NCBI GenBank assembly: GCA_030429345.1
Contig: JAUIFJ010000013.1
Span: forward strand, 1-64,000
DNA from: a bacterium
Lineage (GTDB): Bacteria; CAIWAD01
Length of the DNA: 64,000 nucleotides
Direction: 5' to 3'
Both the position numbers and the translations under genes were made by a program. Below are positions 1 through 64,000 of the stretch, piece after piece. The first letter of the stretch is position 1. Every line of letters starts with the position of its first letter. A model generated the notes under the pieces. The model saw nothing but the letters and a program-made list of their open reading frames with translations. It was not told the DNA's origin and ran no database searches.

Positions 1-175
1 GTGCCATGGACGGTGCCAGGGACGGTGCCAGGGACAGTGCCAGGCACGGTGCCAGGCACGGTGCCAGGCACGGTGCCACGGACAGTGCCAGGCACGGTGC
101 CAGGGACGGTGCCAGGGACGGTGCCAGGCACGGTGCCATGGACGGTGCCACGCACACTGCCAGGGACCGTCCCTG
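1..175. repeat. 12-bp tandem repeat array (GGTGCCAGGCAC-like)
   Basis: The first 175 bases are about fourteen tandem copies of a 12-bp unit with small variations (GGTGCCAGGGAC, GGTGCCAGGCAC, GGTGCCATGGAC, AGTGCCAGGCAC). The core GTGCCAGGCAC is itself a near-perfect palindrome, so single strands could fold into a row of small hairpins. The array continues off the left edge. It is open in two forward frames, giving monotonous TVPG or DGAR peptides, but there is no ribosome-binding site and no recognisable protein, so I treat it as non-coding. From 176 to 350 I see no gene or convincing signal. Confidence 0.85.
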
Positions 176-350
176 GCACTGTCAATCATTCCTGTAGACG
201 GGAGACCTTGCCGTCGATTCCGCCCGGTCTGTCTTCCCATCGGTGCATTTCCCGCATTGGGGCTACCCTCTGTTTGTGCCCCGAACAAATTGCCCCAAGA
301 AAGCCGCCGCTGGACTGAATCCGCTTCCGGACGGTCCGATATAGCTAGCG

Positions 351-1535
351 ATGAGTGAGCCAAGAAATCCGATCCTCGAGAGCGAAATCGCCAGCCCTCC
401 GACCCACGATCTGGGGGATGGCCTGCCACGTGTACTGATTGTAGACGACGAGGAATCGGTCCTTGAGCTCGAAAAGGAGCTGATGGAGTCCTTCGGCTAC
501 GAGGTGGCGACGGCCAGCGATGGTCACCAGGCCGTCGAACGCGCCGGCGAAGGCTTCGACCTGATGCTGCTTGACGTGATGCTGCCTGGTCTCGACGGGT
601 TCCAGGTGGTCCGCATGGTGCGCCGCAAGCTCGATCCCTACCAGCTGCCGATCGTGATGGTGACCTCGATGGCTTCCCGCGAGGACCGGCTGATCGCCAT
701 CCAGGCGGGAGCCAACGACTTCATCAACAAGCCCCTCGACATCACTGAACTGCGCGTCCGCGCCCGGACCCAGATCCAGATGAAGAACGCCCACGATTCC
801 CTGCGCAGCTACCAGGTCGGCCTGGAGCGCAAGGTGCGCGAGCGCACCCGCGAGCTGGAGCAGGCCAACAGCCAGATCACCGAAGCGCACATGGACACCA
901 TCCGCCGGCTGGTGCTGGCCGCGGAGTTCAAGGACGAGGACACGGCCCAGCACATCGAACGCATGAGCCGCTACAGCGCCATTCTGGCCAAGGCTATGGG
1001 ATGCAGCGACGAAGAGGTCGACATCATCCGCCAGGCGGCCCCGATGCACGATGTGGGCAAGATCGGCATTCCCGATTCCGTCCTGCTCAAGCCCGGACGG
1101 CTGACCGAATACGAGTTCCAGATCATGCAGCAGCACACCGAGCTCGGCGCCCGCATTCTGGACGGCAGTCCCTCGCACCTGCTCCAGGCCGGCAAGGTGA
1201 TCGCCATGAGCCACCACGAAAAGTGGGACGGCAGCGGCTATCCCAACGGCTTGGCGGGGGAGGATATTCCGCTTTGGGGCCGCATCTGCGCCGTGGCCGA
1301 CGTCTTCGACGCGCTGACCTCCGAGCGCCCCTACAAGCAGGCCTTCAGCCTGGAAAAAGCCTTCAACATCCTGCGAGAAGGCCGCGCCCGCCATTTCGAT
1401 CCGGACGTGCTCGACTGCTTCTTCGACGGCCTGGACGAGATTCTGCGCATCAAGGGCCAATACTCGGACGACGGCAACCGGTCGGAAATGGGCCCCTACT
1501 CCTACCTCAACGACAGCAGCTTCGAACGCCGCTGA
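351..1535 (+). CDS. response regulator with HD-GYP cyclic-di-GMP phosphodiesterase domain
   Basis: A 394-residue protein of the RpfG type. Residues about 25-145 form a receiver domain (VLIVDDEES start, phospho-acceptor Asp in LMLLDVMLP, conserved Lys in INKPLD). A short coiled coil of about 35 residues (ERKVRERTRELEQAN) links it to an HD-GYP domain at about 185-370. The metal-binding and signature motifs are intact: HIERMSRYS, MHDVGKIGIPD near residue 231, HHEKWDGSGYP near 295 and ADVFDALTSERPYK. The family hydrolyses cyclic di-GMP, so this is probably an active phosphodiesterase switched by phosphorylation. It stands alone with no kinase next to it. The ATG at 351 lacks a strong Shine-Dalgarno. 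Confidence 0.93.
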   Translation: MSEPRNPILESEIASPPTHDLGDGLPRVLIVDDEESVLELEKELMESFGYEVATASDGHQAVERAGEGFDLMLLDVMLPGLDGFQVVRMVRRKLDPYQLPIVMVTSMASREDRLIAIQAGANDFINKPLDITELRVRARTQIQMKNAHDSLRSYQVGLERKVRERTRELEQANSQITEAHMDTIRRLVLAAEFKDEDTAQHIERMSRYSAILAKAMGCSDEEVDIIRQAAPMHDVGKIGIPDSVLLKPGRLTEYEFQIMQQHTELGARILDGSPSHLLQAGKVIAMSHHEKWDGSGYPNGLAGEDIPLWGRICAVADVFDALTSERPYKQAFSLEKAFNILREGRARHFDPDVLDCFFDGLDEILRIKGQYSDDGNRSEMGPYSYLNDSSFERR

Positions 1536-1657
1536 TTTCCGGACCCCCGCCGGTCGATTCCTCCTTCGGGATTGCCGTGTTCCATTCTCATGATTGCTGT
1601 ACCTGGTGGACGGATTGGCGCGATTGCATCGCCTCGTCGTGGATCGATGGGCCGTTC

Positions 1658-1807
1658 CCGGTTCGCCCCTTCCATTGTGGACCATTGAATCGTGATCGGT
1701 TTTTCCGCGTCCCGCGGGCCTCGCTCCGAGGTGATGGCGGCAATCCGGTATCGGCGGCAATACGATGGTGGTGGCGTATCGGTGACGGTCGATCCCGTGG
1801 TGTCTGG
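1658..1807. repeat. intergenic repeat, copy 1 (conserved 63-nt segment plus 17-bp units)
   Basis: This lies in the 459-bp gene-free spacer 1536-1994. Bases 1658-1720 closely match 9532-9593 (shared runs include GTGGACCATTGAA and CGTGATCGGTTTTT). They are followed by about four degenerate 17-bp units beginning at 1740, 1757, 1774 and 1791 (GCAATCCGGTATCGGCG, GCAATACGATGGTGGTG and variants). The same 17-bp unit recurs at 9759-9949. No credible gene is present; frames open here give low-complexity Arg/His-rich peptides. Confidence 0.7.
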
Positions 1808-1854: not shown

Positions 1855-1882
1855 TTGTGTCACAATTGTCAAATTTGCGATC
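1855..1882. promoter_or_regulatory. palindrome TTGTGTCACAA plus TGTCAAATTTGC element
   Basis: About 115 bp ahead of the giant beta-helix gene is the perfect 11-bp palindrome TTGTGTCACAA (1855-1865), followed directly by TGTCAAATTTGCGATC (1867-1882). The second element is nearly repeated at 61289-61305 (TGTCAAATTTTGCAATC) upstream of the secreted endonuclease gene. The area is AT-rich against its GC-rich surroundings, as expected of a promoter or operator. Role inferred from position and repetition only. Confidence 0.4.
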
Positions 1883-1994: not shown

Positions 1995-4900
1995 ATGAAA
2001 CAGCTGCTGGCCGGACTGGCACTCCTGGCCCTGGCGGGCTCGATGCTCGCGGACCCCGTGCCGACGTCGGTGTCCGCCGATCTGACTCTGGATTCGGCAG
2101 GCTCGCCCTGGCACATCACGGGCAATACCAATGTGCAGGGTGGCGTGACCTTGACGATAGAGGCCGGAGTGGAGCTCATCGTCGACGGCAACTACTACCT
2201 GACCATCGACGGCGCGCTGGTGTCCGAGGGCACGTCGGGCGACCCGGTCAGCATTCACGGATCGGGAGGAGCCGGCAGCTGGCGCGAGATCCAGTTCCGC
2301 TCCTCGGTGCTTTCCAGCCAGCTGGACCATACCACCCTTTCCGGCGGCGGCAGCCATTCGAGCTACGGCACGCTCCACGTGACGAATCACGCGCTGACCC
2401 TGAACCACTGCGTGCTCGACGATTCCGCCTATGACGGCCTGATCCTGGCAAGCGGCGGCGAAGCCACGCTCAGCGACTGTTCGATCCAGGACACGCGCTA
2501 CCCGATCCACGTGGTCCACGGCGATTTCGCCCTCGATCTAACGGGCAGCAACGGCCTGGTCAACAACACCTATCCCCAGGTCCGCCTGGCGATCAGCAGC
2601 CTTGCCCGCGACGTGCAGCTGGACGGGGCCCTGGACGTGGCCTACGCCCTGACCGGCGACCTGACCGTGCCCAGCGGGCATGACCTGGAACTGGGCCCCG
2701 GAGTCGTGCTCAAGCTGCCGTCGGGCGGGGACCTGCATGTACACGGCGGCTTCTTCAGCGCCGGCAGCGCGGGACAGCCGAACACGATCACCAGCCTCTA
2801 CGACGACAACGTGCTCGGGGACAGCAACGGCGACGGGCCCGCGACGACTCCCGCGCCCAACTCCTGGGAATCCCTGCGCTTCCATGGGGACTCCGACGAC
2901 GCCGCCAGCGGCATGAGTCACACCACCGTGCGCTTCGGCGACTCGGCGGTCTGGCTGCAGGACGCGGGCCCCGACTTCGACGACTGCGAGTTCAGCAATT
3001 CGGTCTACCCACTGCACATGCTGGGCGTGTCGACTCCGACTATCGACGACTGCATCTTCGCCGTGGCCACGTATACGCCGATCTACATGAGCCTGAGCAG
3101 CCTGCCGGTGATGAACGACAACGACTTCTCCACCTCCAACAACGGCTGGGACGCCATCGGCATCATTCCCGAGACCTTGGGCGCGGACGGCTTCCTGCCG
3201 GTGCGCAACTTCACCAGCGTGCCCAACGTGACCTATGTGCTCGCCGGCAACCTGGTCGTGCCCCAGGGGATCTCGCTGAGCGTGGATCCGGGCGTGGTGG
3301 TCAAGTTCACCGGCTACAGCTACGGCATCAAGGTCGAGGGGGGCCAGCTCGACGCCGCGGGCACGGCGGAGCAGGAGATCGTCTTCACCTCCGTCAAGGA
3401 CGACAACCACGGCAACCCGGCGGACACCAACAACGACGGAAGTATCACGGCCCCGGCGGCCGGCGACTGGCGGGGCATCGCCTACAACGACGGCGCGACG
3501 GGATCGATGGATCACGTCAACCTGCGCTACGCTGGCGGCTACTGGCACTACTCCGTGGACAACCTCTACCGCGAGGCGGGCCTGGGGCTCTTCGACAGCA
3601 GTCCCTCCGTGGAGCACAGCACCTTCTTCGACAATTCGGATCACGGCCTGCTGCTGCTCGGCAACAGCAATCCCCTCGTCGACGGCAACACCTTCAGCAA
3701 CCACGACCGCACGCCGATCTCGATGAGCGCCGCGGCCGCTCCGGTCTTCGTCGACAACAGCTTCAGCAACAACGGCTACACGGCCCTCGGGCTGGCGGGC
3801 GAGTACCTGGGCACCAACAGCACCCTGGGCCAGCGCACGGTCGCCGGCTACGAGAACATCACCTATGTGCTCGAGAACACGATCCGCGTGGACAGCGGCA
3901 CGCATCTGGCGGTCGATCCGGGCGTGGTCGTCAAGGGCCGCGCGGCCAATGTCTCGATCCAGGTCGAGGGCAGCCTGGAGAGCGCGGGCACGGTGGCGGA
4001 GAACGTGGTCTTCACCTCCCTGCTCGACGACAATCACGGCCATCCGGCGGACACCAACAACGACGGCAGCGCCACCGCGCCGGGCCATTCCAACTGGGGC
4101 CACCTGGATTTCCGGCCGACAGCCGATGACGCCAACTGCCTCGTCAGCCATACCTGGCTGGGCTACGGCGGCGATTCGCAGGACGGCGTGATCCGTTGCG
4201 AGAACGCCGGACCGACCATCGGGCAGTCGACCCTCGACGGCAACTACTACGGCGTCTCCTGCCGCGGCACGAGCGACCCCGTGATCACGGACTGCCTGAT
4301 CCAGAACTGCTATGCGACGCCGGTCTACATGGCGGTGACCTCGGATCCGGACATTGCCTTCGCCAACACCTTCATCAACAACGGCTATTTCGCCCTCGGC
4401 GTGATCAGCGAGCCCCTGACCGTGGCCGCCACCCTGCCGCAGCGCAACGTGGCGGGCGTGAACAACTTCACCTATCTCTTCAGCAGCAATTTCGGCATCC
4501 AGGAGTCGGGCCACCTGACCCTGGACGAGGGCGTGGTCGCCAAGTTCCTGTCCTACGCCAGCCTGCTCGTATACGGCGACCTGAGCATCGCCGGCAGCGG
4601 CGCCAACCGCGTCTACCTGACCTCGGTGCGGGACGACGCCGTCGGCGGCGACACCAACGAGGACGGCAGCTCCACCTCGCCCTCCCAGGGCGACTGGGGA
4701 CGCATCCGCTTCCACGAGACCGGCGGCGGCGACAGCGAGCTGCAGCACGCCGTGATACGCTACGGCGGCTGGAGCAGCTCCTACTACGGGCAGATCGAGC
4801 TCCTGAGCTCCAGCCCCTCGATCCATGATTGCGAGATCACCAATGTCTACTGGGGCATGGATGTGCTCGGCGCCTCCGCACCCCTCGTGGAGGACAACGT

Positions 4901-7148
4901 CTTCGTGAACATCGGCCGCACGCCTGTGCGCCAGTCGCTGGTCGCAACTCCGGCCTACAGCGGCAACCAGTTCTTCAACGCCGCGATCCAGGCGATCGAG
5001 ATCTACCCCGAGACCATCGGGGTCAACCTGAGCCTCTCGCCGCTGGACTTCGCAGGCTACGAGAACATCACCTGGTACCTGGCGGGCACGCTGACGGTCA
5101 ACAGCACGACCCATATGAGCGTGGACCCGACCATCGTGATCAAGTCCTCCGGGGGACGGATCGCGGTCAATGGCAGTTTCTCCTGCGACCAGGCGGTCTT
5201 CACCGCTGTCGCCGACGACTCGGCGGGCAACCCGGCGGACACGGAGGACAACGGCGCCGGCACGACGCCGGATGAGAACGACTGGAACGGCCTGCAGTTC
5301 AACGACATCAGCGTAGACGCCAACTGTCTGGTGGAGAACAGCGAGTTCCGCCATGCGGTCCAGGGCATTCTCTGCACCAATGCGGCGCCGGAGATCGCGA
5401 ACACGGTTTTCGACGGCTGCCGTCACGGCCTGTACTTCAACGGCAATTCGCCCGCCGTGTTGAATACGGTCGAGATCCGCAACAGCCAGTACAGTCCCGT
5501 ATACCAGAGTCTGGTCAGCAATGTGGACTATGGCAGCACGGTCTTCGGCTCCGGCAACGGCTACCTGGGCATCGGCATCAAGGGCGAGACCCTGGCCCAG
5601 GAGATCACGCTGCCGATCCGCGGCAGCGACGGCATCGACAACCTGGTCTACGTGCTGGAGGACAACCTGACGGTCGGCAGTTCCGCCGTGCTGACCATCG
5701 CGCCCGGGGTCGTCGTCAAGGCCACCAACGGCCGGACGATCACCGTGCACAAGGGCATCCAGGCGCTGGGCGGCCCGACGCCGGAGCAGCAGGTGGTCTT
5801 CACCGTGATCGAGGACGATTTCTACGGCGGCGACACCAACCAGGATGGCACGGCCTCGGTTCCCGTCAACCGCAACAATGTGATCTACGTGGCCGACGAC
5901 TCCTGGGACGCGCTCTGCGCCTTCGACTATTGCGTCTTCAACCACTGGGGCTACAACGGCAGCTATGGCGCCATCGACGCCAACAGCGCCAGTCCGACGA
6001 TCCAGAACACGGTCTTCCGCGACGGCGACCTGGGCGTGAGCTGCCGCGGGGCCTCGAGTCCCGTGATCAGCGGCTGCGACTTCAGCGGCAACCAGTACTT
6101 CGGCCTGCTCAACGAGAACAGTTCGATCACGGTCAACGCGGAGAACAACTGGTGGGGCGACGCCAGCGGGCCCCTCGACGACAGCGACGACACGGCCTCG
6201 GGTGGCCTCTACAATCCCGGCGGACTGGGCGACGCGGTCAGCGACTACGTGGATTATGATCCCTGGGTCACCAGCCTGCAGCTGCCGCTGCTGGGGGACG
6301 TGAGCCTCAACGGCTCGCTCCACGCCTATGACGCCTCGCTGGTGCTGAGCCACCTGGCCGGCGGCATCGTGCTGAGTCCGGAGCAGCTCGCGGTGGCGGA
6401 CGTGACCGGCGACGCTGCCGTCGACGCGGTGGACGCGCACTACATCCTGCAGGTCGTCGTCGGCGCGGAGACCACCTTCCCGGGCGAGACCAGCGACTAC
6501 GAGGGCGAGCCCTTCGATCCGGAGAGCGAGCTGCTGGCTTCCGTATCACAGGACCAGGAAGGCTGGTGGCTGCGGCTGGACCTGGGTGGCGACAACGCCC
6601 TGCGCGGCTTCCAGGCGGAACTGGACCTGCTGGACGGACTGCAGGTGCTCGAGGCCGAAGGCCAGGCCGACCAGAACCTGTCCTGGCACACGGATGAAAC
6701 GGGCAGGCTGCGGCTGGCCCTCGCGCCTCTGGCGGTCCAGGAAGAGGCCCTGAGCCTGCGCCTGCGCGTGGACGGGGATCCGACGGGACACTACGAGCTG
6801 CTGGGCTTCCGCGTCAACAACCAGGACTTCGAACTCGAGTCCACGGGGAGCGGGGAAGCGGAACGGCCCCTGGCCTTCGCCCTGCACGCGGCCTGGCCCA
6901 ATCCCTTCAATCCGTCCACGAACCTGAGCTTCGACCTGCCGCGGGAAGGCCCGGCACGACTTGCCGTCTACAACCTGCGCGGAGCGCTGGTCCAGGTGAT
7001 CCATGACGGGCCCCTGCCCGCCGGCAGCCACACGCTGCGCTGGGACGGCCGCACCGGAGGCGGAGGAGGCGCGGCCTCGGGCATGTACTTCATCCGGCTG
7101 GACACGGCGGCGGGCCGTGCCACTCAGGCCGTGACCCTGCTGAAGTAG
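1995..7148 (+). CDS. giant secreted parallel beta-helix protein with dockerin-like segment and C-terminal sorting domain
   Basis: A 1717-residue exported protein. The signal peptide is MKQLLAGLALLALAGSMLA and a good ribosome site (GGGAGAG) precedes the ATG. The body is about seven imperfect repeats of roughly 200 residues, each opening with a strand like NITYVLENTI, then VDPGVVVKG, then a Ca-binding-like acidic loop such as DTNNDGS; right-handed beta-helix is the likely fold. Residues about 1433-1493 resemble a two-copy type I dockerin (GDVSLNGSLHAYDASLVL and ADVTGDAAVDAVDAHYIL). Residues 1515-1615 look like a cohesin-type beta sandwich. The tail from about 1630 (AWPNPFNPSTNLSF to the end) is a FlgD-like/type IX-type sorting domain. 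Function unknown; surface adhesion or carbohydrate interaction is plausible. It overlaps the next gene's longest possible start by one base. Confidence 0.85.
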   Translation: MKQLLAGLALLALAGSMLADPVPTSVSADLTLDSAGSPWHITGNTNVQGGVTLTIEAGVELIVDGNYYLTIDGALVSEGTSGDPVSIHGSGGAGSWREIQFRSSVLSSQLDHTTLSGGGSHSSYGTLHVTNHALTLNHCVLDDSAYDGLILASGGEATLSDCSIQDTRYPIHVVHGDFALDLTGSNGLVNNTYPQVRLAISSLARDVQLDGALDVAYALTGDLTVPSGHDLELGPGVVLKLPSGGDLHVHGGFFSAGSAGQPNTITSLYDDNVLGDSNGDGPATTPAPNSWESLRFHGDSDDAASGMSHTTVRFGDSAVWLQDAGPDFDDCEFSNSVYPLHMLGVSTPTIDDCIFAVATYTPIYMSLSSLPVMNDNDFSTSNNGWDAIGIIPETLGADGFLPVRNFTSVPNVTYVLAGNLVVPQGISLSVDPGVVVKFTGYSYGIKVEGGQLDAAGTAEQEIVFTSVKDDNHGNPADTNNDGSITAPAAGDWRGIAYNDGATGSMDHVNLRYAGGYWHYSVDNLYREAGLGLFDSSPSVEHSTFFDNSDHGLLLLGNSNPLVDGNTFSNHDRTPISMSAAAAPVFVDNSFSNNGYTALGLAGEYLGTNSTLGQRTVAGYENITYVLENTIRVDSGTHLAVDPGVVVKGRAANVSIQVEGSLESAGTVAENVVFTSLLDDNHGHPADTNNDGSATAPGHSNWGHLDFRPTADDANCLVSHTWLGYGGDSQDGVIRCENAGPTIGQSTLDGNYYGVSCRGTSDPVITDCLIQNCYATPVYMAVTSDPDIAFANTFINNGYFALGVISEPLTVAATLPQRNVAGVNNFTYLFSSNFGIQESGHLTLDEGVVAKFLSYASLLVYGDLSIAGSGANRVYLTSVRDDAVGGDTNEDGSSTSPSQGDWGRIRFHETGGGDSELQHAVIRYGGWSSSYYGQIELLSSSPSIHDCEITNVYWGMDVLGASAPLVEDNVFVNIGRTPVRQSLVATPAYSGNQFFNAAIQAIEIYPETIGVNLSLSPLDFAGYENITWYLAGTLTVNSTTHMSVDPTIVIKSSGGRIAVNGSFSCDQAVFTAVADDSAGNPADTEDNGAGTTPDENDWNGLQFNDISVDANCLVENSEFRHAVQGILCTNAAPEIANTVFDGCRHGLYFNGNSPAVLNTVEIRNSQYSPVYQSLVSNVDYGSTVFGSGNGYLGIGIKGETLAQEITLPIRGSDGIDNLVYVLEDNLTVGSSAVLTIAPGVVVKATNGRTITVHKGIQALGGPTPEQQVVFTVIEDDFYGGDTNQDGTASVPVNRNNVIYVADDSWDALCAFDYCVFNHWGYNGSYGAIDANSASPTIQNTVFRDGDLGVSCRGASSPVISGCDFSGNQYFGLLNENSSITVNAENNWWGDASGPLDDSDDTASGGLYNPGGLGDAVSDYVDYDPWVTSLQLPLLGDVSLNGSLHAYDASLVLSHLAGGIVLSPEQLAVADVTGDAAVDAVDAHYILQVVVGAETTFPGETSDYEGEPFDPESELLASVSQDQEGWWLRLDLGGDNALRGFQAELDLLDGLQVLEAEGQADQNLSWHTDETGRLRLALAPLAVQEEALSLRLRVDGDPTGHYELLGFRVNNQDFELESTGSGEAERPLAFALHAAWPNPFNPSTNLSFDLPREGPARLAVYNLRGALVQVIHDGPLPAGSHTLRWDGRTGGGGGAASGMYFIRLDTAAGRATQAVTLLK

Positions 7149-7159: not shown

Positions 7160-9130
7160 TTGCGCACCCTTAGCCTGCTGCTGCTGCTCGCCGGCTCACT
7201 GCCCGCGGCGGAACTGCGGTTCGACAACCAGACCTTTGTCGCACAACAGGGCGGGATCGTCCATGTGCCCCTGCAGGTGAGCGCCATGGCGCCCGAGGGG
7301 ATCACGGCCCTGGAATGCAGCATGGATCTTCCACCGAACTGGGTGATCGACGGTGTCACGACGGCGGGTCACCTGGCCGAGAGCTGGGGCGCCACGCTAA
7401 GCCATTCAGCCTCCGGCCGGCACATGGAACTGGCCCTGGCCGGGGAGGCCGTCCTGGTCGGGGAGGGCGTGCTGCTGGAAGTGCGGGCGCGAATCGACGG
7501 CAGCGGCTGGACGGCGCTGGAAGCCACCGCCAACGAGGGCGATCCCGCCCTGGAGGTCTCCGCGGGCTATCTGACCCACACCCTGCCGCCCGTCCTTTCC
7601 GTATCACCTTCCGCGGCCGTGGAGCTGCTGGTCGGCGAGAGCCAGGACTACAATGCCGGCGGCGGCGTGACACCCTACGCCTGGAGCGTGGATCCGCCGG
7701 CCCTGGGCAGCATCACGGGGGAAGGGCTGTTCACGGCCGCGCAGGCCGGAGAAGGGCAGATTCTCGTCAGCGATCCGGAAGGGGCCGCCGGCGCATCCGG
7801 TCCCCTGCGGGTGCGCTCCTTCGCCATGGGATTCGGTTCGGCGGACAGCATCGCCGGAGCCACCGTGCGTCTGCCGCTTCTGCTGGAGAACCCGCTGGGC
7901 GAGGAGGTGACCGGCTTCGAGATCGAACTGGATGTCAACGCGGAGCGCCTCCACAATCCCGTGATCCGCGAGGAAGGCATGCTCTGCGCGGACTGGAGCC
8001 TGCTCGTCGTCACCTTGCAGAATGGACGGTTGAGGCTGGCGGGCGCTCACTCCGAAGGGATCACGGAAAGCGGGGCACTGCTGGAGCTGGAAGTGTCCAG
8101 CACGGTAGGCAACGGCTTCAACATGGACCTTCGTGCGGAAGAACTCCACGTCAACGAGAATCCGGCGGTGATCGCCCGGCCCGGCACCCAGCACTTCAGC
8201 CCATCGGGCAATTTCTCCATTTCGCCGGGGACGGCCCTGCTTGAGCGCGGGGAGAGCCTGGCCTTCCAGATCAGTGGCACCCCCGCCGGCGAGGTTGCCT
8301 GGCAGAGCAGCGCTCCCCTCGTCGCCGAAGTGGACGCCAACGGCCTGCTGACGGCGCTGCAGGGCGGCGAGGTGGTGCTCAGCGCCACCGACGAGCTGGG
8401 CCAGACGGTGGAAAGCGGACAGATCCGCGTCGTGGACCTGGACGCCTGGCTGCCGGACACCAGCGCCGTGATCGGCGAGGAATGGCTTTGGCCGCTGCGC
8501 TGCGACGCCCTGCCCTCGGAGGAGCTGCAGTCCCTGGAGATCACCCTGACATGGTCCTCGCCCTGGATCCAGTTCGTGGGAATCGAGAGCGAGGGCTGTC
8601 TTACACAGGACTGGGCCGACTGGGCCCTCAGCGACACCCTGCAGGAAGTGCGGATCGCCGGCGCCGGGGCGGCCCTGGCGCTCAGCGGAGCGGATCTCTG
8701 CCGGCTTCGATTCGCCCTATCGCCCGAAGCGACAACCCAGCCCCTTCCGGTGCAGCTGGAGCTTCTCTTCAACGAAGGCTTTCCGGTTGTCCGGGCAGAA
8801 GGAGGCAGCGTCAGCGGCGGAGTGCAGGCCCTGGACGACGCGGTCGAAGCTCTCGCCTTCGAGCTTCTGCCGGCCTGGCCGAATCCCTTCAATCCGGCGA
8901 CGATGGTGGAGTTCCGCCTGGCCCGAAGCGCTTCGACCCGGCTGGAGGTCTACGATCTGCGGGGCGCCCTTGTCCGCCGCCTGCTGGAACAGGAACTGCC
9001 CGCCGGCCTGCACCGGGTACGCTGGAACGGTCGCAACACGGCCGGCGGGGAAGCCGCCAGCGGGAGCTATATCCTGCACCTGGTCGCCGGGACAGGCAGC
9101 CAAAGCCGGCAAGTCACTCTGCTTCGCTGA
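7160..9130 (+). CDS. secreted protein with three cohesin-like domains, Ig-like domains and C-terminal sorting domain
   Basis: I prefer the TTG at 7160 over the GTG at 7148: GGAGG at 7150-7154 sits five bases before it, and it gives a clean signal peptide (MRTLSLLLLLAGSLPAA). The mature protein alternates cohesin-like beta sandwiches (about residues 18-140, 220-335 and 445-560 of this form; opening strands such as LRFDNQTFVAQQGG) with bacterial Ig-like modules (AWSVDPPALGSITGEGLF and AWQSSAPLVAEVDANGLL). The C-terminus is a PNPFNP sorting domain ending RQVTLLR. It is translationally coupled to the dockerin-bearing gene before it, suggesting the two products may bind each other or act together. 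The cohesin assignment rests on pattern and length, not a search. Confidence 0.75.
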   Translation: MRTLSLLLLLAGSLPAAELRFDNQTFVAQQGGIVHVPLQVSAMAPEGITALECSMDLPPNWVIDGVTTAGHLAESWGATLSHSASGRHMELALAGEAVLVGEGVLLEVRARIDGSGWTALEATANEGDPALEVSAGYLTHTLPPVLSVSPSAAVELLVGESQDYNAGGGVTPYAWSVDPPALGSITGEGLFTAAQAGEGQILVSDPEGAAGASGPLRVRSFAMGFGSADSIAGATVRLPLLLENPLGEEVTGFEIELDVNAERLHNPVIREEGMLCADWSLLVVTLQNGRLRLAGAHSEGITESGALLELEVSSTVGNGFNMDLRAEELHVNENPAVIARPGTQHFSPSGNFSISPGTALLERGESLAFQISGTPAGEVAWQSSAPLVAEVDANGLLTALQGGEVVLSATDELGQTVESGQIRVVDLDAWLPDTSAVIGEEWLWPLRCDALPSEELQSLEITLTWSSPWIQFVGIESEGCLTQDWADWALSDTLQEVRIAGAGAALALSGADLCRLRFALSPEATTQPLPVQLELLFNEGFPVVRAEGGSVSGGVQALDDAVEALAFELLPAWPNPFNPATMVEFRLARSASTRLEVYDLRGALVRRLLEQELPAGLHRVRWNGRNTAGGEAASGSYILHLVAGTGSQSRQVTLLR

Positions 9131-14458: not shown

Positions 14459-14610
14459 CCAGGATCTTCAACACGGGGCACAGGGCGGATCACGGCATGC
14501 GGGAGTTCCCGCGGGACTCCGCGGCCCGGAAGGGGCCGGCTGCCAAACGCCGTGTTTCCCGTGATGCAAGAACCTGCAACCAGCTGCCCACGCGGGCAGG
14601 AGAAGCGAAG

Positions 14611-43944: not shown

Positions 43945-44838
<894 letters not shown>

Positions 44839-50735: not shown

Positions 50736-50874
50736 GCCGTGAGCAACCGTTCCTGCGGACGGTTGTTCGCTCCGCCTTTGAACGACCCCTGCACGCGACG
50801 GAGCCGACAGTGCCCGTGGCGGACGGGGGTTGTTTCATTTCATCAGGCCATGTCTCACAATCCTTCCTGCAGCC

Positions 50875-52341: not shown

Positions 52342-52596
52342 ATGGCCAAGAAGGAAAGCTTCGAGCAGGCCCTGGGCCGCCTCGAGGAGATTGTCACACG
52401 GCTGGAGGACGGCGAACTGCCGCTGGAGGAATGCCTGAGCCAGTACCGCGAAGGCCTGCGCCTGCACAAGGTCTGCCAGGAGCGCCTGGCGCGGGTGGAA
52501 GAGGAATTGAGCCGTTACCTTGACGAGGACGGCGAACTGCGCCCCCTGGACGAGCCCGGTCGGGCCGCGTCCGGAGAACTCTTCGATTCTGCCTGA
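52342..52596 (+). CDS. xseB: exodeoxyribonuclease VII small subunit
   Basis: An 84-residue partner of XseA. The core FEQALGRLEEIVTRLEDGEL, LEECLSQYREGLRLHKVC and the following helix match XseB; the acidic C-terminal tail is variable. The ATG at 52342 gives the usual start; an in-frame codon at 52294 would add 16 residues. It lies 54 bp after xseA and 10 bp before nadK. Confidence 0.93.
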   Translation: MAKKESFEQALGRLEEIVTRLEDGELPLEECLSQYREGLRLHKVCQERLARVEEELSRYLDEDGELRPLDEPGRAASGELFDSA

Positions 52597-54403: not shown

Positions 54404-55751
54404 CAAACCCGGCCTCTATGTCCACACGGTGGGCTGCGCCAAGAACCTGGTCGATTCGGAAATGCTGGCCGGCCTGGCCGGGGAGCGCGTGCGCCTGGTC
54501 GATGAAGGCGAGCAGGCGGACCTGATCGTGGTCAACACCTGCGGCTTCATCGACGCCGCCAAGACCGAGAGCATCGACGCCGTCATGGAGGCCGTGCAGC
54601 TGAAGGGCGAGCAGCCCGGGCGCAAGGTCTTCGTGATGGGCTGCCTGAGCAAGCGCTACCGGGAAGAGATCCGCGCCGAGATCCCGGAAGTCGACGGCGT
54701 ATACGGAGTCGGCGAGTTCCAGGCCGTGCTGCACGACGCCGGGCTTTCCGGAGCGGCCAGCGTGCCGCCGGAGCTGGAAGTCTTCGAGCGGCGTACCCTG
54801 CTCGGCCCCTCGCACAGCGCCTACCTGCGCATCTCCGACGGCTGCAACCAGCACTGCACCTATTGCGCGATTCCCGGTATGCGCGGCCGCATGGTCAGCC
54901 GGCCCTTCGAGGACCTGCTGCACGAGGCGCGCTCGCTGGCCGGGCGCGGAGTGGTCGAGCTGAATGTGATCGGGCAGGAGATCTCGAGCTACGGCGAGGA
55001 TCTGGGCGCCAACCGCATCGGCGAACTGGTGCGCGAGCTGGGGCAGCTGCCGATTCCCTGGATCCGCCTGCTCTACAGCCATCCTCCCAAGGTCGACCGC
55101 GCCTTTGCCGAGGCCATCTCCGAAGCGCCCTCCGTCCTGCCCTACCTGGACTTTCCCGTGGAACATGTCAGCGGGGCCGTGCTGCGCCGCATGGCGCGCA
55201 AGGGCAATGCCGAAAGCCTTGCCGGGACCATGCGCATGCTGCGCGAGGTCAATCCGGGCATGGTGATCCGCACCTCGATCATCGTCGGGTTTCCGGGAGA
55301 AAAAGAAGAGCACGTGCAGGAGCTGCTGGACTTCATGGAGTACAGCCCCTTCGACCGGCTGGGCGTTTTCTGCTACAGCCCGGAAGAGAACACGCCCAGC
55401 TTCCGCTACCCGGACCAGGTGCCCAGGGAAGAGGCCGAAGAGCGCAAACGCCGCGTGATGGAAAAGCAGATGGAGCTGAGCCTCTCCGCCAACCAGGACC
55501 TGATCGGGCGGGAAGAGTGGGTGCTGGTCGACGAGGTGGATCCGCAGGCCGGCATTTCGGAAGCGCGCAGCTGGCGCGACGCCCTCGAGATCGACAATAC
55601 GGTGGAAATCCAGACCGCCTGCCAGCCGGGCAGCTTCGTTCCGGTGCGCTATGTGGACGCCGGCGAGTACGACCTGCGCGCCGAAAAGCTGGACCGCGAG
55701 CCGCAGGGGAACCCCGGAAAGGGGCCGGGAGTCCACCCTGTCAGGACCTAA
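54396..55751 (+). CDS. rimO: ribosomal protein S12 methylthiotransferase RimO
   Basis: A 451-residue radical-SAM methylthiotransferase that modifies Asp of ribosomal protein uS12. The N-terminal iron-sulfur domain has VGCAKNLVDSEML, VVNTCGFIDAAK and MGCLSKRYREE; the radical-SAM motif is DGCNQHCTYCAIPGMRGR, where CxxxCxxC binds the second cluster; the TRAM domain ends the protein. ATG at 54396 overlaps ftsY and follows GAGGAG by ten bases. The GCAKN rather than MiaB-type spacing and the CAIP loop favour RimO over MiaB. Confidence 0.94.
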   Translation: MSSKPGLYVHTVGCAKNLVDSEMLAGLAGERVRLVDEGEQADLIVVNTCGFIDAAKTESIDAVMEAVQLKGEQPGRKVFVMGCLSKRYREEIRAEIPEVDGVYGVGEFQAVLHDAGLSGAASVPPELEVFERRTLLGPSHSAYLRISDGCNQHCTYCAIPGMRGRMVSRPFEDLLHEARSLAGRGVVELNVIGQEISSYGEDLGANRIGELVRELGQLPIPWIRLLYSHPPKVDRAFAEAISEAPSVLPYLDFPVEHVSGAVLRRMARKGNAESLAGTMRMLREVNPGMVIRTSIIVGFPGEKEEHVQELLDFMEYSPFDRLGVFCYSPEENTPSFRYPDQVPREEAEERKRRVMEKQMELSLSANQDLIGREEWVLVDEVDPQAGISEARSWRDALEIDNTVEIQTACQPGSFVPVRYVDAGEYDLRAEKLDREPQGNPGKGPGVHPVRT

Positions 55752-55764: not shown

Positions 55765-57075
55765 ATGCGATTGCTCCAGTTGCTGGGCCTGAGCCTGCTG
55801 GCGTCCGGCCTGCAGGCGGCCAGTTTCACGGATCGGCAATGGCAGCCCGACTTCCAGGTCGAGCTGCAGGATTATTTCCCCGACGAGACCTCGCCCCGCC
55901 GCACGGTCTTCACCTGCATCTTCAGCAATGCGGACCTGCAGTACCTGCGGCGCGGCGGGGAAAGCATGCCCCGCAACCTGAGCGGCTACACCTTCGAGGA
56001 AGGGCAGGAAGAGCTGCCCTTCGCCGCGCGCTACGAGATCAGCCTGGAAGTCTTCGAGCTGGATGAGCGCGAGCGCAAGGGGCGCAACGTGACCGGCGAC
56101 TACGGCCGCTGGCTGGTGGCGGCTCCCGACTACGAGAGCACGCTGGACCGCAAGGAGCTGCGCTGGCATCCCTTCCAGGTCGATCTGCCCCCCGGCGACT
56201 ACATGTGGTGGATCGAGTTCCAGGACCTCAACACGCGGCGCAGCTACCGCGAGGACGGCAGGATGACCGTCCACGAGCCCGGGCCGGGCTGGGAACTGGG
56301 CCGGCTGTGGAAGACCCAGGACAGCCGGGACGAGGCGGAGAATCCGCTCGAGCTGCGCCCCGCCCCGCCCCGCGGGCTGGAGGACGGCAGCACTTTCCGC
56401 GTCTACTACCAGGTGCGCAGCGGGAAGGGGGACCGGCTCGAGCTGGGCTCGCGGATCCTCGACGGCCGCGGCAAGGTGCGGCACGAGAACCACGTCGAGA
56501 GGGACTACCCGCAGGGCGTGTCGCACAACCAGTTCCAGATTCCCCTGCAGGAGCTGGGCGCGGGCGAGTATACACTGGAATTGAGCCTGGACGACGGGGC
56601 GCACAAGAGGACAAGCAGCACGCGCTTCAACGTGCGCTGGCAGAACGGCCCCGTATCACGGGAAGACCTGGACACGGCCATAGCCCAGCTGCGCTACATT
56701 GCCGGCCGCCGGGACCTGAAGGACATGCAGAACTCGCGGCCGCCGCACAACCGCAACCTCTTCGAGCAGTTCTGGGAGCGCTACGATCCGGATCCGGAAA
56801 CGGAGGAGAACGAGCTCAAGGAAGAGTACTACGACCGCGTCGCCGTCAGCAACGCCAGTTTCGCCTGGGCCCGCTTTCCCGGCTGGAAGTCGGACCGCGG
56901 CCGCGTATACATTCTTTACGGCGAGCCGACCACCCGCGAGTTCTACGAGGAAAGCTTCGAGAAGCCGGCCATGGAGCGCTGGGTCTACGCCGAAAACGAC
57001 CGCGAGTACTACTTCGTCGACGAGCACGGCTTCGGCGAGTTCCGCCTGGTGCCGGAACTGGAGCTGCAGCGGTGA
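55765..57075 (+). CDS. GWxTD-domain exported protein, function unknown
   Basis: A 436-residue protein with a signal peptide (MRLLQLLGLSLLASGLQA); the ATG at 55765 follows AGGAGA by four bases. The C-terminal domain contains FPGWKSDRGRVYILYGEP near residues 370-390, a GWxTD-type motif (here GWKSD), and ends with EYYFVDEHGFGEFRLV. The N-terminal two thirds is a series of beta-sandwich-like segments (FTCIFSNADLQYL, DYMWWIEFQDLNT, EYTLELSLDDGA). GWxTD proteins are found mainly in FCB bacteria and lack a defined role. It is sandwiched between housekeeping genes and overlaps the S66 peptidase by four bases. Confidence 0.85.
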   Translation: MRLLQLLGLSLLASGLQAASFTDRQWQPDFQVELQDYFPDETSPRRTVFTCIFSNADLQYLRRGGESMPRNLSGYTFEEGQEELPFAARYEISLEVFELDERERKGRNVTGDYGRWLVAAPDYESTLDRKELRWHPFQVDLPPGDYMWWIEFQDLNTRRSYREDGRMTVHEPGPGWELGRLWKTQDSRDEAENPLELRPAPPRGLEDGSTFRVYYQVRSGKGDRLELGSRILDGRGKVRHENHVERDYPQGVSHNQFQIPLQELGAGEYTLELSLDDGAHKRTSSTRFNVRWQNGPVSREDLDTAIAQLRYIAGRRDLKDMQNSRPPHNRNLFEQFWERYDPDPETEENELKEEYYDRVAVSNASFAWARFPGWKSDRGRVYILYGEPTTREFYEESFEKPAMERWVYAENDREYYFVDEHGFGEFRLVPELELQR

Positions 57076-58028
57076 TCCGCTTGCAGCCGGTGCGCGCACC
57101 CCGCCACGACCCTCCGCGGATCACGGTGGTCGCCCCGGCGGGACCGGTGGATCCCGAGGCCCTGCAGAAAGGCCTGCAGGCCCTGCGCAAGGAAGGCTTC
57201 GAGCCGCGCGCCGCAAAGGGACTGGACGCGCGTTGGGGCCATTTGGCGGGACGGGACGAGGAACGGGCCCACTCCCTGCAGGAGGCCCTGCTCGACGAGG
57301 ACTGCGACCTGGTGCTCGCCGCGCGCGGCGGTTTCGGCTGCGCGCGCCTGCTTCCGCTGTTGGACTACGAGGCCCTTGCCCGCCGCGCGCCGACCCTGAT
57401 CGGCTACAGCGACCTGAGCGCCCTGCAGATGGCCCTGCTGGCCCGCTGCGGCCTGCCTTCCCTGCACGCCCCCATGCTGGCCAGCGAATGGAGCCGCGGA
57501 CTGGATCCCCCCAGCCGCGATTCGCAGCTGGCCTTCTTTCAGGCAGGCCTGGCCGGCGGACCGCTGCAGGAACTGCAGCTGCGTCCCGACCAGGTGCTGG
57601 TGCCCGGCCGCTGCGAGGGCTGGCTGGCCGCCGCAAACCTGAGCGTGCTGACCAGCCTGGCCGGCACTCCCTGGCTGCCGGACCTGCGGGGGGCCGTGCT
57701 TTTCCTCGAGGAATACGGAGAGTATCCCTTCCGCCTGGATCGTCACCTGGCCCAGCTGCGCAACTGCGGGGCCCTCGAGGGGCTGGCGGGCATCGTGCTG
57801 GGGCAGGTCTTCGGCTGCGAGGAGCCGGATCCCGACAAGTCGACCTTCAGCGCCGAGCACCTGCTGGAACAGTATTTCGGCGACCTGGGGCTGCCCGTCC
57901 TGCGCGATTTCCCCTTCGGACACCGTCCGCCCCGGCTCAGCCTGCCGCAGGGCGGACGAGTGGTCTGTGATACAGAGAAAAGCCGGCTGCTCATCCTGCC
58001 TCCCGGAAGCCCCATTCTTGCATCATAG
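57072..58028 (+). CDS. LD-carboxypeptidase, peptidase family S66
   Basis: A 318-residue serine peptidase beginning at GTG that overlaps the previous stop. It has the nucleophile Ser in TLIGYSDLSALQMALL, the Glu and His of the family triad in VLFLEEYGEYPFRLD and FGHRPPRLSLP, and the opening ITVVAPAGPVDPEAL. S66 enzymes trim the terminal D-residue from tetrapeptides during peptidoglycan recycling. It is a cytoplasmic form without a signal peptide. Confidence 0.88.
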   Translation: MIRLQPVRAPRHDPPRITVVAPAGPVDPEALQKGLQALRKEGFEPRAAKGLDARWGHLAGRDEERAHSLQEALLDEDCDLVLAARGGFGCARLLPLLDYEALARRAPTLIGYSDLSALQMALLARCGLPSLHAPMLASEWSRGLDPPSRDSQLAFFQAGLAGGPLQELQLRPDQVLVPGRCEGWLAAANLSVLTSLAGTPWLPDLRGAVLFLEEYGEYPFRLDRHLAQLRNCGALEGLAGIVLGQVFGCEEPDPDKSTFSAEHLLEQYFGDLGLPVLRDFPFGHRPPRLSLPQGGRVVCDTEKSRLLILPPGSPILAS

Positions 58029-59334: not shown

Positions 59335-59337
59335 TGG

Positions 59338-60591: not shown

Positions 60592-61203
60592 ATGGAGAAA
60601 GGAGACCTGCTTGCGCTGTGTCGTGTGACGGGGCTGGTGCTGGATCACGAAGAGCAGGAGGCGGGGAGGGAGCTCACCCGGCTTGCGGAGCGGGGAGGGA
60701 TCACGGCGGAAGAGGGGCACGAATGGGCACTGATGCTGCTGCTCTTCGCGGGCTATCCGGCGAGCATCTCGGCTGCCGGTCTGCTGGAACAGGCCTTCCC
60801 GGATTCCCGGGAGCTCCGCGCCGAAGAGGCGGAAACGGGAGTCTTTCTGCCACGCGGACGCGAGCTCTTCGATGCCGTCTACGGGGCGGTGGCCGATCGC
60901 GCCCTGGAGTCCCTGGCCGCGCGCAGCCGCACTTTGGCCGACTGGATCCTGGATCACGGCTACGGGCGGATTCTCTCGCGGCGTGGCCTCGATGGGGGAG
61001 CCCGCGAGGGGCTTTCGGTCTACCTGCTGGCCCGCGCCGGCTGGCGGACGCAGTTGAAGGCGCACCTGCGCGGATCCCTGCGCCTGGGACTTAAGGCGCA
61101 GACCCTGGAGGAGGTGCTGGATCTTGCTCCCGCCAGCGAGGGACTCAAGGCCGAAGCCCGCGAGTGGCTTCGCCAGCTGAGCCGGCCTTCCTCCGCTTCC
61201 TGA
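60592..61203 (+). CDS. small carboxymuconolactone-decarboxylase-like protein (weak)
   Basis: A 203-residue helical protein. Residues about 43-65 (EWALMLLLFAGYPASISAAG) resemble the conserved helix of the carboxymuconolactone decarboxylase/AhpD fold (typically AxxAGFPAAxNAL). The redox CxxC of AhpD is absent, and no catalytic residue can be proposed. The start at 60592 follows a purine-rich repeat, with the run AGAAGAAAGAG perhaps acting as a weak ribosome site. It may be a genuine gene of unknown function; the codon bias is similar to neighbours. Confidence 0.55.
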   Translation: MEKGDLLALCRVTGLVLDHEEQEAGRELTRLAERGGITAEEGHEWALMLLLFAGYPASISAAGLLEQAFPDSRELRAEEAETGVFLPRGRELFDAVYGAVADRALESLAARSRTLADWILDHGYGRILSRRGLDGGAREGLSVYLLARAGWRTQLKAHLRGSLRLGLKAQTLEEVLDLAPASEGLKAEAREWLRQLSRPSSAS

Positions 61204-61322: not shown

Positions 61323-62864
61323 ATGATTCACCGCCCCGCACTGGGTCTCCTGTTCCTGGGAACCTGCCTTGCCGGCCCGCTGCACGCCCTGCGCTGGCAG
61401 CCCGCCGCGCTGGATTTCGGCACGCGCAGCGTCGGTCAGCCGGCAACAGCCACCGTCTGGCTGGTCAATGACGGCAGCGAGGCCATGGACCTGCCCACCC
61501 TGAGCACGCACCTGGAAGGCCTGGACTGGCAGATTCAGGGCGGCAGCCTTGCTGCCGGCGACAGCCTGGAACTGGCACTCGACTGGACCCCGTCGCAGAA
61601 CATGCCCTATCTGGGCGCGCTGGCGGCAGAGGGCGATACCGGCGGTTGGGGGCTTTCCCTTTCCGGTTCCGGCGATCTGGCTGGCAGCACCTGGGACGGA
61701 AGCTATGGCCTGAGCGGAAACGCCCTGCGCGACCACCTGCGCACGGTGGTCCGCCAGCACAGCGAACTGGGCTATACCACGGCGCGCACGATCATGTTCG
61801 GCAGCCTGGACAACGTGGGCGGCTGGGTCGAGAGCGTGTATACGGGTTTCCAGCTGCAGACCTCCGGCATTCCGGATCACACGGTGATGAACACCGAGCA
61901 CACTTGGCCGCAAAGCCTTTTCAACGGCGCGGACAGCATTCGCACGGACCTGCATCACCTTTTCCCCTGCAAGAGCAACATCAACAGCAGCCGCGGAAAC
62001 CTGCCTTTCGGCAACGTGGTCAACAGCTCGAGCGGCTTTCCCACGGGAGGAGCGGACCGCGGCACCGATGCCAACGGCACCACCGTCTTCGAGCCGCGCC
62101 TGTCTCACAAGGGGGACTGCGCGCGCTCCATGTTCTATGTCGCCCTGCACTACGGCAACCTGAGCGGCTTCCTGGGCTACCAGGAAGCCACCCTGCGGGA
62201 CTGGTCGGAGCTGGACCCGGTCAGCCAGAAGGAGCGGGATCGCAACGACGGCATCGAAGGCGCCCAGGGCAACCGCAATCCCTTCGTCGATCACCCGGGC
62301 TTCCTCGATCGTTTGGCCACGCTCTCCGGCAGCAACGCCAACCTGCCGGCGGTGCAGGAACTGGCGGCCTTTCCCGCTGGGGGGCTGGACCTGGGCAGCG
62401 GCACGGAAGCCGAACTGGCAGGCGGCCTGCTGCTCTGCAACACGGGCAGCCAGGTGCTGCACTTCGGCGCGCCCCTGCTCAGCCCGGCGGTCTTCGTCCT
62501 GGAGGGCTTCCCGGCCAGCCTGGCGCCCGGCGAGAGCGCGCAGTGCGTGATCCGTCCCGCGGCGGGCGAGGAAGGCGGCCTGCTGGCCAGCCTGCAATAC
62601 ACCAGCGAGGCGGGATCGGCGAGCCATGTGATCCAGGCCCTGGTCGAAAGCGCGCAGCCCCAGCCGCTCGAACTGCAGATCCGCATCGAGAATTTCCAGG
62701 TGGTGCTCGAATGGAACGAGGTTCCCGGCGCCGGCGGCTATCGCATCCAGAGCCGCCTGCCCGGCGAGGGCTGGGGCGACACGAGCTTCACGACGAATCT
62801 CGCGGCCCAGCTGATCTGGGACGAGTACGAGGAAATCCGCTTCTACCGCGTGCTGTCGGAATAG
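61323..62864 (+). CDS. secreted endonuclease I-family nuclease with flanking beta-sandwich domains
   Basis: A 513-residue protein with a signal peptide (cleavage near LAGPLHA) and GGAG before the ATG. An ASH/choice-of-anchor-like sandwich (ALDFGTRSVGQPATATVWLV) precedes the nuclease, which spans about 120-335: the catalytic His motif MNTEHTWPQSLF, then DLHHLFPCKSNINSSRGNLP, FYVALHYGNLSG and RNPFVDHPGFLDRL, typical of EndA/NucM enzymes that cleave nucleic acid nonspecifically outside the cell. A second similar sandwich follows, then a fibronectin-like module ending FYRVLSE. It lacks a PNPFNP sorting tail, unlike other exported proteins here, so it may be released. It has its own regulated-looking promoter and a strong terminator. 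Confidence 0.9.
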   Translation: MIHRPALGLLFLGTCLAGPLHALRWQPAALDFGTRSVGQPATATVWLVNDGSEAMDLPTLSTHLEGLDWQIQGGSLAAGDSLELALDWTPSQNMPYLGALAAEGDTGGWGLSLSGSGDLAGSTWDGSYGLSGNALRDHLRTVVRQHSELGYTTARTIMFGSLDNVGGWVESVYTGFQLQTSGIPDHTVMNTEHTWPQSLFNGADSIRTDLHHLFPCKSNINSSRGNLPFGNVVNSSSGFPTGGADRGTDANGTTVFEPRLSHKGDCARSMFYVALHYGNLSGFLGYQEATLRDWSELDPVSQKERDRNDGIEGAQGNRNPFVDHPGFLDRLATLSGSNANLPAVQELAAFPAGGLDLGSGTEAELAGGLLLCNTGSQVLHFGAPLLSPAVFVLEGFPASLAPGESAQCVIRPAAGEEGGLLASLQYTSEAGSASHVIQALVESAQPQPLELQIRIENFQVVLEWNEVPGAGGYRIQSRLPGEGWGDTSFTTNLAAQLIWDEYEEIRFYRVLSE

Positions 62865-62931
62865 CGGCAGCGGGCGGTATCGATTTCGGAATCGAGCGAG
62901 GTCGAAGTCCCACTTTGTACCTGGTAACCGC

Positions 62932-62969
62932 AACGGCCCCCCGGCAAGATCTCGCCGGGGGGCCGTTTT
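62932..62969. terminator. strong bidirectional terminator between convergent genes
   Basis: A 14-bp perfect stem (AACGGCCCCCCGGC with GCCGGGGGGCCGTT) and eight-base loop followed by TTTT. It lies 67 bp after the endonuclease and 20 bp from the stop of the minus-strand beta-helix gene, so it can end transcription from both sides. Confidence 0.93.
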
Positions 62970-62988
62970 CGTGTTTCGAGGTCTTTGT

Positions 62989-64000
62989 CTATTCGGTGAC
63001 GGCTTCCACGTAGTAGTAGCTGTTGAAGGCCGGCGCGGGAGCGGCCCAGCTCTCGCCGACGAAGCTGCCGCTTTCGTCGATGGCGAATCCGGCCCAGGGG
63101 GCGGCGCTGCTGTAGACATTGTAATACAGGACGCCCGGCACCGTCGTCCATTCCAGCTCCACCAGGCCGTCGGCGACGGTGATCGAGGTGATCACCGGGC
63201 GGCAGGATTCCGTGTTCCAGGGGTCGAAGCTGACCACGCCGAGCGTGCCGTCCTCCTCGTCGTCCCGGATCCGCGCGTCGATGGCGGAGGCCGTGGTCGC
63301 GCCCCAGAAGTTGCCGCAGGCGGACACGTTCTGCGTGCTGCTGTTGTTCAGGGCGAAGCCGCCGTTGTCATGGATGCAGTTGCCGCCGTCGCCTGTCGGA
63401 CAGGCGCCCATGTCGAGGCCGCTGCCCGTGTGCAGCAGGCCGTCGCCCGCGTTGTGGCTGATGTGCGTGCCGCGCAGGCTGAGGCTGAAGCCGGCATGGT
63501 CGATGCCCACTCCCGCGCTGCGGCTGACTTCGCAGTTGTTGAGCGCCATCCAGTTGGACTGGTAGCAGCGCAGGGCCGCCTGTCCATCGCCGGCGTGGCG
63601 TAGACGCAGGCCGCTCAGGTTTCCGACGCCTTCATAGTGGGAATAGCCGTAGAAGTAGAGGCCGATCCAGTCTCCGGGTGATCCGGCGCTGGGGCCGTCG
63701 CCGTTGGTGTCCCCGTCCACATCGTCCGCGGCGAAGGAGCAGAAGGTGATCGGCTGGGTACCGCTGCCGTTGGCGATCAGCGTGCCGTAGGCCAGCAGCT
63801 GGGTCCCGGGCTGGGCCTTGAGGGTCTGCCGGCCATTCAGGCTCAGGCTGACATTGTCATTGATCGTGATCCCCCCCGTCATCACGAAGGGAAAGCCCGG
63901 GCCGCCCTGCTCCCAGCTGCGGTCGGAGCTCACGCTGCCGTTGAGGGCGAAACCGTTGAAGGCGTTGCCGCTTCCCGTGTTTCCGGAATAACTGGTCAGG
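62989..64000 (-). CDS. secreted beta-helix protein, partial (5' end beyond window)
   Basis: At least 337 codons are open from the right edge to the stop at 62989; the true start is outside the window, and the GTG near 63933 is merely internal. The visible part has the acidic-loop module GDTNGDGPSAGSPGDW that is found repeatedly in the protein at 1995-7148, then beta-helix rungs (LSLRGTHISHNAGDGLLH, GGNCIHDNGGFALNNSS) and a closing fibronectin-like domain (VADGLVELEWTTVPGVLYYN) ending VEAVTE. This final domain resembles that of the facing endonuclease, and again there is no PNPFNP tail. Function unknown. Confidence 0.8.
   Translation of the reverse strand, partial: LTSYSGNTGSGNAFNGFALNGSVSSDRSWEQGGPGFPFVMTGGITINDNVSLSLNGRQTLKAQPGTQLLAYGTLIANGSGTQPITFCSFAADDVDGDTNGDGPSAGSPGDWIGLYFYGYSHYEGVGNLSGLRLRHAGDGQAALRCYQSNWMALNNCEVSRSAGVGIDHAGFSLSLRGTHISHNAGDGLLHTGSGLDMGACPTGDGGNCIHDNGGFALNNSSTQNVSACGNFWGATTASAIDARIRDDEEDGTLGVVSFDPWNTESCRPVITSITVADGLVELEWTTVPGVLYYNVYSSAAPWAGFAIDESGSFVGESWAAPAPAFNSYYYVEAVTE

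Follow-up and report, generated by a model that had tools for sequence, protein, structure and literature searches.

The 64,000-nucleotide stretch analysed here (the window; positions 1 to 64,000 of contig JAUIFJ010000013.1, assembly GCA_030429345.1) carries 27 copies of the palindrome GTATAC, the element with which this report is concerned. The copies inside called genes were read in the Val-Tyr (GTA TAC) or the Tyr-Thr (G TAT AC) frame, while the site at 35540 was located in a spacer. An earlier note on the window had described both readings and the spacer site correctly and had likened the sites to the highly iterated palindrome HIP1. All of the GTATAC coordinates that it gave were correct, but its count of about 26 was slightly low and five sites, at 18000, 23084, 24245, 28004 and 30336, had not been listed. 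The 27 copies are at 3071-3076, 4569-4574, 5499-5504, 10294-10299, 11696-11701, 12059-12064, 15421-15426, 17823-17828, 18000-18005, 18620-18625, 21899-21904, 23084-23089, 24245-24250, 28004-28009, 30336-30341, 31692-31697, 33327-33332, 35465-35470, 35540-35545, 42888-42893, 44467-44472, 46877-46882, 54361-54366, 54699-54704, 56568-56573, 56905-56910 and 61838-61843.

The source genome, designated G000, belongs to an uncultivated bacterium and is a draft assembly of 4.24 Mb in 92 contigs with a GC content of 64%, and the window lies within contig 47. The closest named relatives of its MreB protein were 61% identical and came from a Krumholzibacteriota bacterium and similar lineages, so that the host is not cyanobacterial. 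The phylum was represented by five genomes in the collection used. The other genomes were G001, G002 and G003, from the same family but another genus, and G004, from the same class but another family.

GTATAC excess in the window and the genome

Dinucleotide-preserving shuffles of the window (n = 100) contained 1.29 ± 1.10 copies of GTATAC, with a maximum of 5, and under a first-order model no other 6-base palindrome of the window came close to it in over-representation (27 observed, 1.4 expected). Composition alone predicted 6.6 copies, rather than the five or six estimated in the earlier note, while the excess was larger than had been claimed.

The reversed word, CATATG, served as the genome-wide control. 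The whole assembly had 1793 copies of GTATAC and 128 of CATATG. The genomes of G001, G002 and G003 had only 21, 23 and 16 copies of GTATAC, respectively, and the 199 copies in G004 were about equal to the control of that genome. Since the relatives were either near 16-23 copies or at the control level, the excess most likely arose in the G000 lineage.

Codon usage was controlled by permuting synonymous codons genome-wide in 1311 genes, called with a simple codon-based caller on 1.81 Mb of G000. These genes contained 678 copies of GTATAC where 115 were expected, an approximately 5-6-fold excess. A set of 500 called genes contained 267 copies, compared with 35-62 in 20 such shuffles, and in the called genes of G002 none was observed where about 11 were expected. 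When the shuffle also fixed the codon-junction context, the expectation for GTATAC rose to 387 and 8-mers such as GTGTGACA were found 254 times rather than the expected 22; this shuffle absorbs part of the signal because the iterated words themselves fill its pools. Genome-wide, GTATAC occupied all three phases, including the CGT/TGT-ATA-C phase, which requires the very rare ATA codon and was observed 28 times compared with an expectation of 0.1. Codon bias alone was thus ruled out by the codon shuffle and by the use of all frames. Two proposals of the earlier note, that codon preference alone is insufficient and that GTATAC is a HIP1-like iterated palindrome, are supported by the count across the genome, by the codon shuffle and by the relatives, which lack the excess. 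The iterated-word phenomenon itself is secure. The literature searched contained no description of an iterated GTATAC.

Three further candidates were rejected. Dispersed long repeats were ruled out because the contexts of the sites were unrelated. Very-short-patch (C-to-T) repair was rejected because the words with T and with G in place of the last C of GTATAC were equally depleted, so that the depletion was not specific to T. For amino acid replacement at the sites, the identity to the sister genome was 44% at site codons compared with 50% overall, but the values were 41 and 38 after dipeptide matching, so that replacement is not supported.

A set of iterated words with common flanks

The 7- to 9-mers with the greatest excess in G000 fell into a discrete group with the same flanks, YGTATACR, YGTGWBACR and YGTGATCCR, in which the members of YGTGWBACR were GTGAGAC, GTGTGAC, GTGATAC and GTGACAC. 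There were at least six overused words in G000, with a common YGT...ACR shape, of which GTGATCC has one end. The copies observed and expected under the codon shuffle were, for the 1311 genes of G000 and then for G002:

YGTATACR: 461 observed, 37 expected; G002, 0 and 2.8
YGTGAGACR: 249 observed, 12 expected; G002, 1 and 1.6
YGTGTGACR: 266 observed, 23 expected; G002, 3 and 3.5
YGTGATACR: 201 observed, 18 expected; G002, 2 and 2.9
YGTGACACR: 196 observed, 23 expected; G002, 11 and 3.8
YGTGATCCR: 720 observed, 178 expected; G002, 9 and 24

Within the window, the flanked words other than YGTATACR were located at the following positions (strand in parentheses):

YGTGAGACR: 12894-12902 (+), 19274-19282 (-), 19974-19982 (+), 33549-33557 (-), 42250-42258 (+), 42626-42634 (+), 45808-45816 (-), 50851-50859 (-), 62101-62109 (-)
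YGTGTGACR: 16030-16038 (+), 22126-22134 (-), 32835-32843 (+), 37128-37136 (-), 42750-42758 (+), 45967-45975 (+), 47053-47061 (-), 52392-52400 (-), 60622-60630 (+)
YGTGATACR: 4751-4759 (+), 6542-6550 (-), 12733-12741 (-), 21782-21790 (-), 27942-27950 (+), 32100-32108 (+), 32559-32567 (+), 53639-53647 (+), 56652-56660 (-), 57966-57974 (+)
YGTGACACR: 1856-1864 (-), 19204-19212 (+), 54026-54034 (+)
YGTGATCCR: 3508-3516 (-), 3637-3645 (-), 4187-4195 (+), 7960-7968 (+), 13029-13037 (+), 14486-14494 (-), 14683-14691 (+), 16188-16196 (-), 21533-21541 (+), 34404-34412 (+), 36413-36421 (-), 37537-37545 (-), 42013-42021 (-), 43122-43130 (-), 45699-45707 (+), 51584-51592 (-), 57117-57125 (-), 60641-60649 (-), 60950-60958 (-), 61873-61881 (-), 62546-62554 (+), 62627-62635 (+)

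The sister genome G002 is without a comparable excess of this word set. Some words, such as GCTCTAC, were raised in G002 as well and look like ordinary context effects, and the G002 loci L048-L067 had mild excess words of another kind (CCTGCTCA, 92 compared with 26).

Single-base changes in YGTGWBACR at G2, T3, G4, A7 or C8 mostly returned the count to about the expectation, while position 5 accepted A, T and weakly C, and position 6 accepted G, T and C; these tolerances give the short form YGTGWBACR. The flanks were also required. GTGAGAC was enriched 20.7-fold with both flanks, 3.3-fold with Y only, 3.4-fold with R only and 0.8-fold with neither. The corresponding values for GTGATCC (complement GGATCAC) were 4.0, 2.3, 1.1 and 1.4, so that this word was less enriched than the two-ended ACR words. 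Words with ACR on both strands therefore require two flanks, while GTGATCC, with ACR on one strand, depends mainly on the Y side, where the Y is the R next to CAC on the opposite strand. When every 6-mer with AC at its end was scanned, dependence on the R flank was strongest in members of the word set.

With respect to the gene, each word was overused in either orientation and in those frames that the code permits, including those with the otherwise rare ATA and CGT codons. The site words encode 24% of the Val-Tyr pairs and 53% of [RW]-Ile-Thr in the proteome.

Dialects among the relatives

YGTGWBACR was counted on both strands together with its reversed control. The word and control counts were 3061 and 374 in G000, 943 and 194 in G001, 337 and 204 in G002, 177 and 374 in G003, and 882 and 244 in G004, and nine further genomes from the MreB search had little or no excess. 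The preferred spelling also differed. Among the sites listed on the first contigs of G001 and G004, GTGACAC/GTGTCAC accounted for 30 of 71 in G001 and GTGATAC for 46 of 92 in G004. YGTGATCCR had a density of 0.42 per kb in G000 and of 0.03-0.08 per kb in the other genomes. It follows from these counts that the word shape is common to the class and that its spelling varies by genome. The analysis supports the earlier note on the HIP1-like character of GTATAC, but the note had missed both the set of at least six words and the different words of the relatives.

Distribution of the words

The pooled density of the words was 1.32 per kb and was similar along the length of genes. In intergenic gaps of 20-400 bp the 7-mers occurred at 0.59 per kb, compared with 0.63 per kb in genes, while GTATAC and GTGATCC were about 40-50% sparser there than in genes. 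Plus and minus copies were near equal on every long contig, with no strand or replichore bias.

Different words avoided one another at short range. Pairs within 50 bp numbered 33 where 71 were expected for GTATAC and the 7-mers pooled, 12 where 26 were expected for GTATAC with the 7-mers, and 42 where 62.5 were expected for GTGATCC with all other words; the last two values were reached in 0 of 400 circular shifts. This mutual avoidance suggests a single system which all of the words serve or from which they arise. A preferred regular spacing was also considered and rejected, since the excess at 250-400 bp was weak (z about 1-2) and only the short-range avoidance was solid.

The density rose from 0.2 per kb in 4-kb stretches with less than 50% GC to 1.6 per kb in those above 66% GC, although the words are more AT-rich than the genome, and low-GC stretches, including 23-28 kb of the window, were nearly bare of words. 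The trend was read as slow accumulation of the words in resident DNA, with low GC alone assumed to be the sign of acquisition. The following features were located in this part of the window:

23000-31000: stretch of about 50% GC, nearly free of iterated words and likely acquired
23000-31000, minus strand: carries an open reading frame of 1803 codons
22922-25309: beta-helix protein

Methyltransferase and competence genes

The genome has at least nine DNA methyltransferase-like genes. The earlier note had suggested a search for a methyltransferase that recognises GTATAC, and no gene in the survey could be tied to the iterated words. The loci, given as a locus label followed by positions where these were recorded, were:

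L159:8734-9558: orphan beta-class methyltransferase, with homologues in G001 and G003 that are 52-56% identical
L083:3230-5041: orphan gamma-class methyltransferase, 43-44% identical in G001-G003, resembling M.BseCI and M.TaqI
L106 and L160: Type I systems
L160:9117-16250: Type I-like locus with two consecutive HsdM genes and HsdR
L074:3624-8552: complete single-polypeptide Type ISP enzyme with Mrr nuclease, helicase, coupler, methyltransferase and specificity domain
L161: HsdM-like gene
L162: Eco57I-like gene
L163:11231-13702 and L164:4416-7358: paralogous, very long D12-class adenine methyltransferases of 824+ and 980 amino acids, located on small contigs; G002 and G003 have related genes

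ComEC, DprA and a PilM/PilO/secretin cluster were present in G000, which leaves room for DNA uptake.

Tandem arrays of a 12-base unit, CCAGGGACGGTG / CCAGGCACGGTG, were found at positions 1-350 of the window and at L026:4027-4219, L028:15259-15475 and L030:67-151, in contexts of ACGGTGCC. Several were at or near contig ends and the arrays therefore probably cause assembly breaks.

Origin of the iterated words

GTATAC is best regarded as a member of a set of words that are iterated throughout the genome and that have built up at the level of the DNA, in sequence of long residence, as the HIPs of cyanobacteria have. Some cellular factor probably recognises the word shape and has thereby remodelled entire genomes. 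The account that we prefer, tentatively, is accumulation linked to methylation; the mechanism is an inference, since none of the methyltransferase genes followed the dialects. Each core (GTATAC, GTGWBAC or GTGATCC/GGATCAC) would be defined by one of several adenine methyltransferases, which species acquire and lose, and the enzyme would modify the A of the terminal AC of its core. A single shared factor would read the modified ACR end, and a process such as strand-directed repair, or selection for sites, would favour mutations that create a site in places with none close by. With one factor reading the ACR end, words with two ACR ends would need both flanks and words with one would need a single flank. 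The flank dependence of GTGAGAC and GTGATCC, the short-range avoidance between words, the dialects and the lower density in low-GC DNA speak for this account, as do the known methylation of GTATAC in Clostridium isatidis, the HIPs that match methyltransferases and the methyltransferase-like genes of G000. Extension of this scheme to the whole phylum, with one reader of any (methylated) ACR-ended word, several words iterated and a spelling that tracks the methyltransferases of each species, appears rather doubtful.

Several observations weigh against methylation-linked accumulation, 1) no surveyed methyltransferase family followed the dialects across the five genomes, 2) strong HsdM genes were found in G000 and G002 and were lacking from both G001 and G004, 3) the D12 genes were present only in G000, G002 and G003, 4) the small orphan enzymes found in G001 and in G003 are closely related, yet only G001 overuses GTGWBAC, 5) a search that covered half of G000 did not find MutS or MutL, which counts for little either way, 6) we know of no methyltransferase with GTGWBAC specificity, 7) GTGATCC showed no self-avoidance, and 8) the one-sided flank pattern was noticed before it was formally tested and so provides support after the fact.

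The words might instead be DNA uptake sequences, with a type IV pilus receptor that prefers YGT...ACR DNA and with biased uptake and recombination spreading the words as a molecular drive, in species dialects. The pooled density resembles the approximately 1 per kb of the Haemophilus uptake signal sequence (USS) (PMC7811141). The USS is scarcer in newly acquired DNA, much as the density here drops in low-GC DNA, the word differs between related species as in the Neisseriaceae dialects, and the competence genes are in place. In published data, moreover, a second USS within 100 bp does not raise uptake, and drive would not be expected to act on a second site close to the first. On the other hand, known uptake sequences are asymmetric, with essentially one consensus per species, while G000 uses several words that are nearly palindromic and fall into two spacings (GTATAC and GTGWBAC), the avoidance range of about 50 bp is below the length of recombination tracts, and competence genes are so widespread that they prove nothing. 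We consider this origin unlikely, though it is the main competitor of the methylation account. Less probable still is that the words, at about 1 per 760 bp, are sites of an abundant dimeric nucleoid protein that were selected for chromosome organisation. The dyad symmetry of YGT...ACR, the lack of strand bias, an avoidance range of about one protein footprint and the even spread of the 7-mers in and between genes would all suit such a protein. However, nucleoid proteins do not usually have such strict base requirements or accept only a fixed list of centres, the words change between related species and no candidate protein was identified.

A codon-pair or mutational preference that involves no recogniser would explain why words such as GCTCTAC were raised in G002 too, like ordinary context effects. 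It is very improbable, given that the excess of GTATAC survives the codon shuffle, that every frame and orientation was used even at the cost of a rare ATA codon, that near-identical words were not raised and that different words keep apart. Oriented marks, such as Chi, the FtsK-orienting polar sequences (KOPS) and replication-segregation signals, share the high copy number of the words. The earlier note had included a segregation mark among its suggestions, but an oriented mark is disfavoured by the near equality of plus and minus counts, as strand bias along the replichore is the hallmark of Chi and KOPS, and the main word is a palindrome; this origin is scarcely credible. Taken together, the behaviour of the words is HIP-type and uptake-type alike, and membership in neither class is established.

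Comparison with known systems

The nearest known systems are HIP1, GCGATCGC, and the alternate HIPs of cyanobacteria, GGCGCC and GCCGGC. HIP1 consists of the methyltransferase core CGATCG with one further base at either end, G and C, and the alternate HIPs, some of them degenerate words, occur together with methyltransferases that match them (PMC4390886). Elhai proposed that a reader of methylated ends drives the accumulation of HIP1 (PMC4390886). Like HIPs, the G000 words are short, occur about once per kb, are absent or respelled in relatives and consist of a core with preferred flanks; the flank pattern parallels the extension of the HIP1 core. GTATAC in particular is a short palindrome in excess of both the composition and the codon expectation, with a sporadic presence among relatives. 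HIPs, however, are mostly palindromic, while GTGAGAC, GTGTGAC, GTGATAC, GTGACAC and GTGATCC are not perfect palindromes and occur several at once. Moreover, G000 is outside the cyanobacteria, the core is AT-rich in a 64% GC genome, no matching methyltransferase was found, and the proposed mark is on A rather than, as in HIP, on C.

In Clostridium isatidis BK32, N6-methyladenine at the fifth base of GTATAC has been documented (PMC12311949). The six bases are the same as those of the G000 word and are there a methylation target, GTAT(m6A)C (PMC12311949). However, that organism has only 460 copies in about 3 Mb, and G000 is without an identified cognate gene.

The DNA uptake sequences (DUS) of Neisseriaceae and the USS of Pasteurellaceae have a similar density and species dialects with a conserved core, and in G000, as in these systems, the sites are dense in native DNA and fewer in DNA that, judged by low GC, was probably acquired, and competence genes are present. 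In contrast to a single asymmetric consensus of about 9-12 bases per genome, G000 has at least six words, several of them near-palindromic, with two spacings.

The cause of HIP1 is still open, chiefly because its study was confined to one phylum. The G000 words offer an independent case, with several exchangeable words, close relatives in which these are missing or spelled differently, and flanks common to different cores. They thus provide a natural experiment in which the core set by the methyltransferase could be told apart from the factor that reads the site. The force at the DNA level is so strong that the site words account for a quarter to half of the occurrences of certain short peptides in the proteome.

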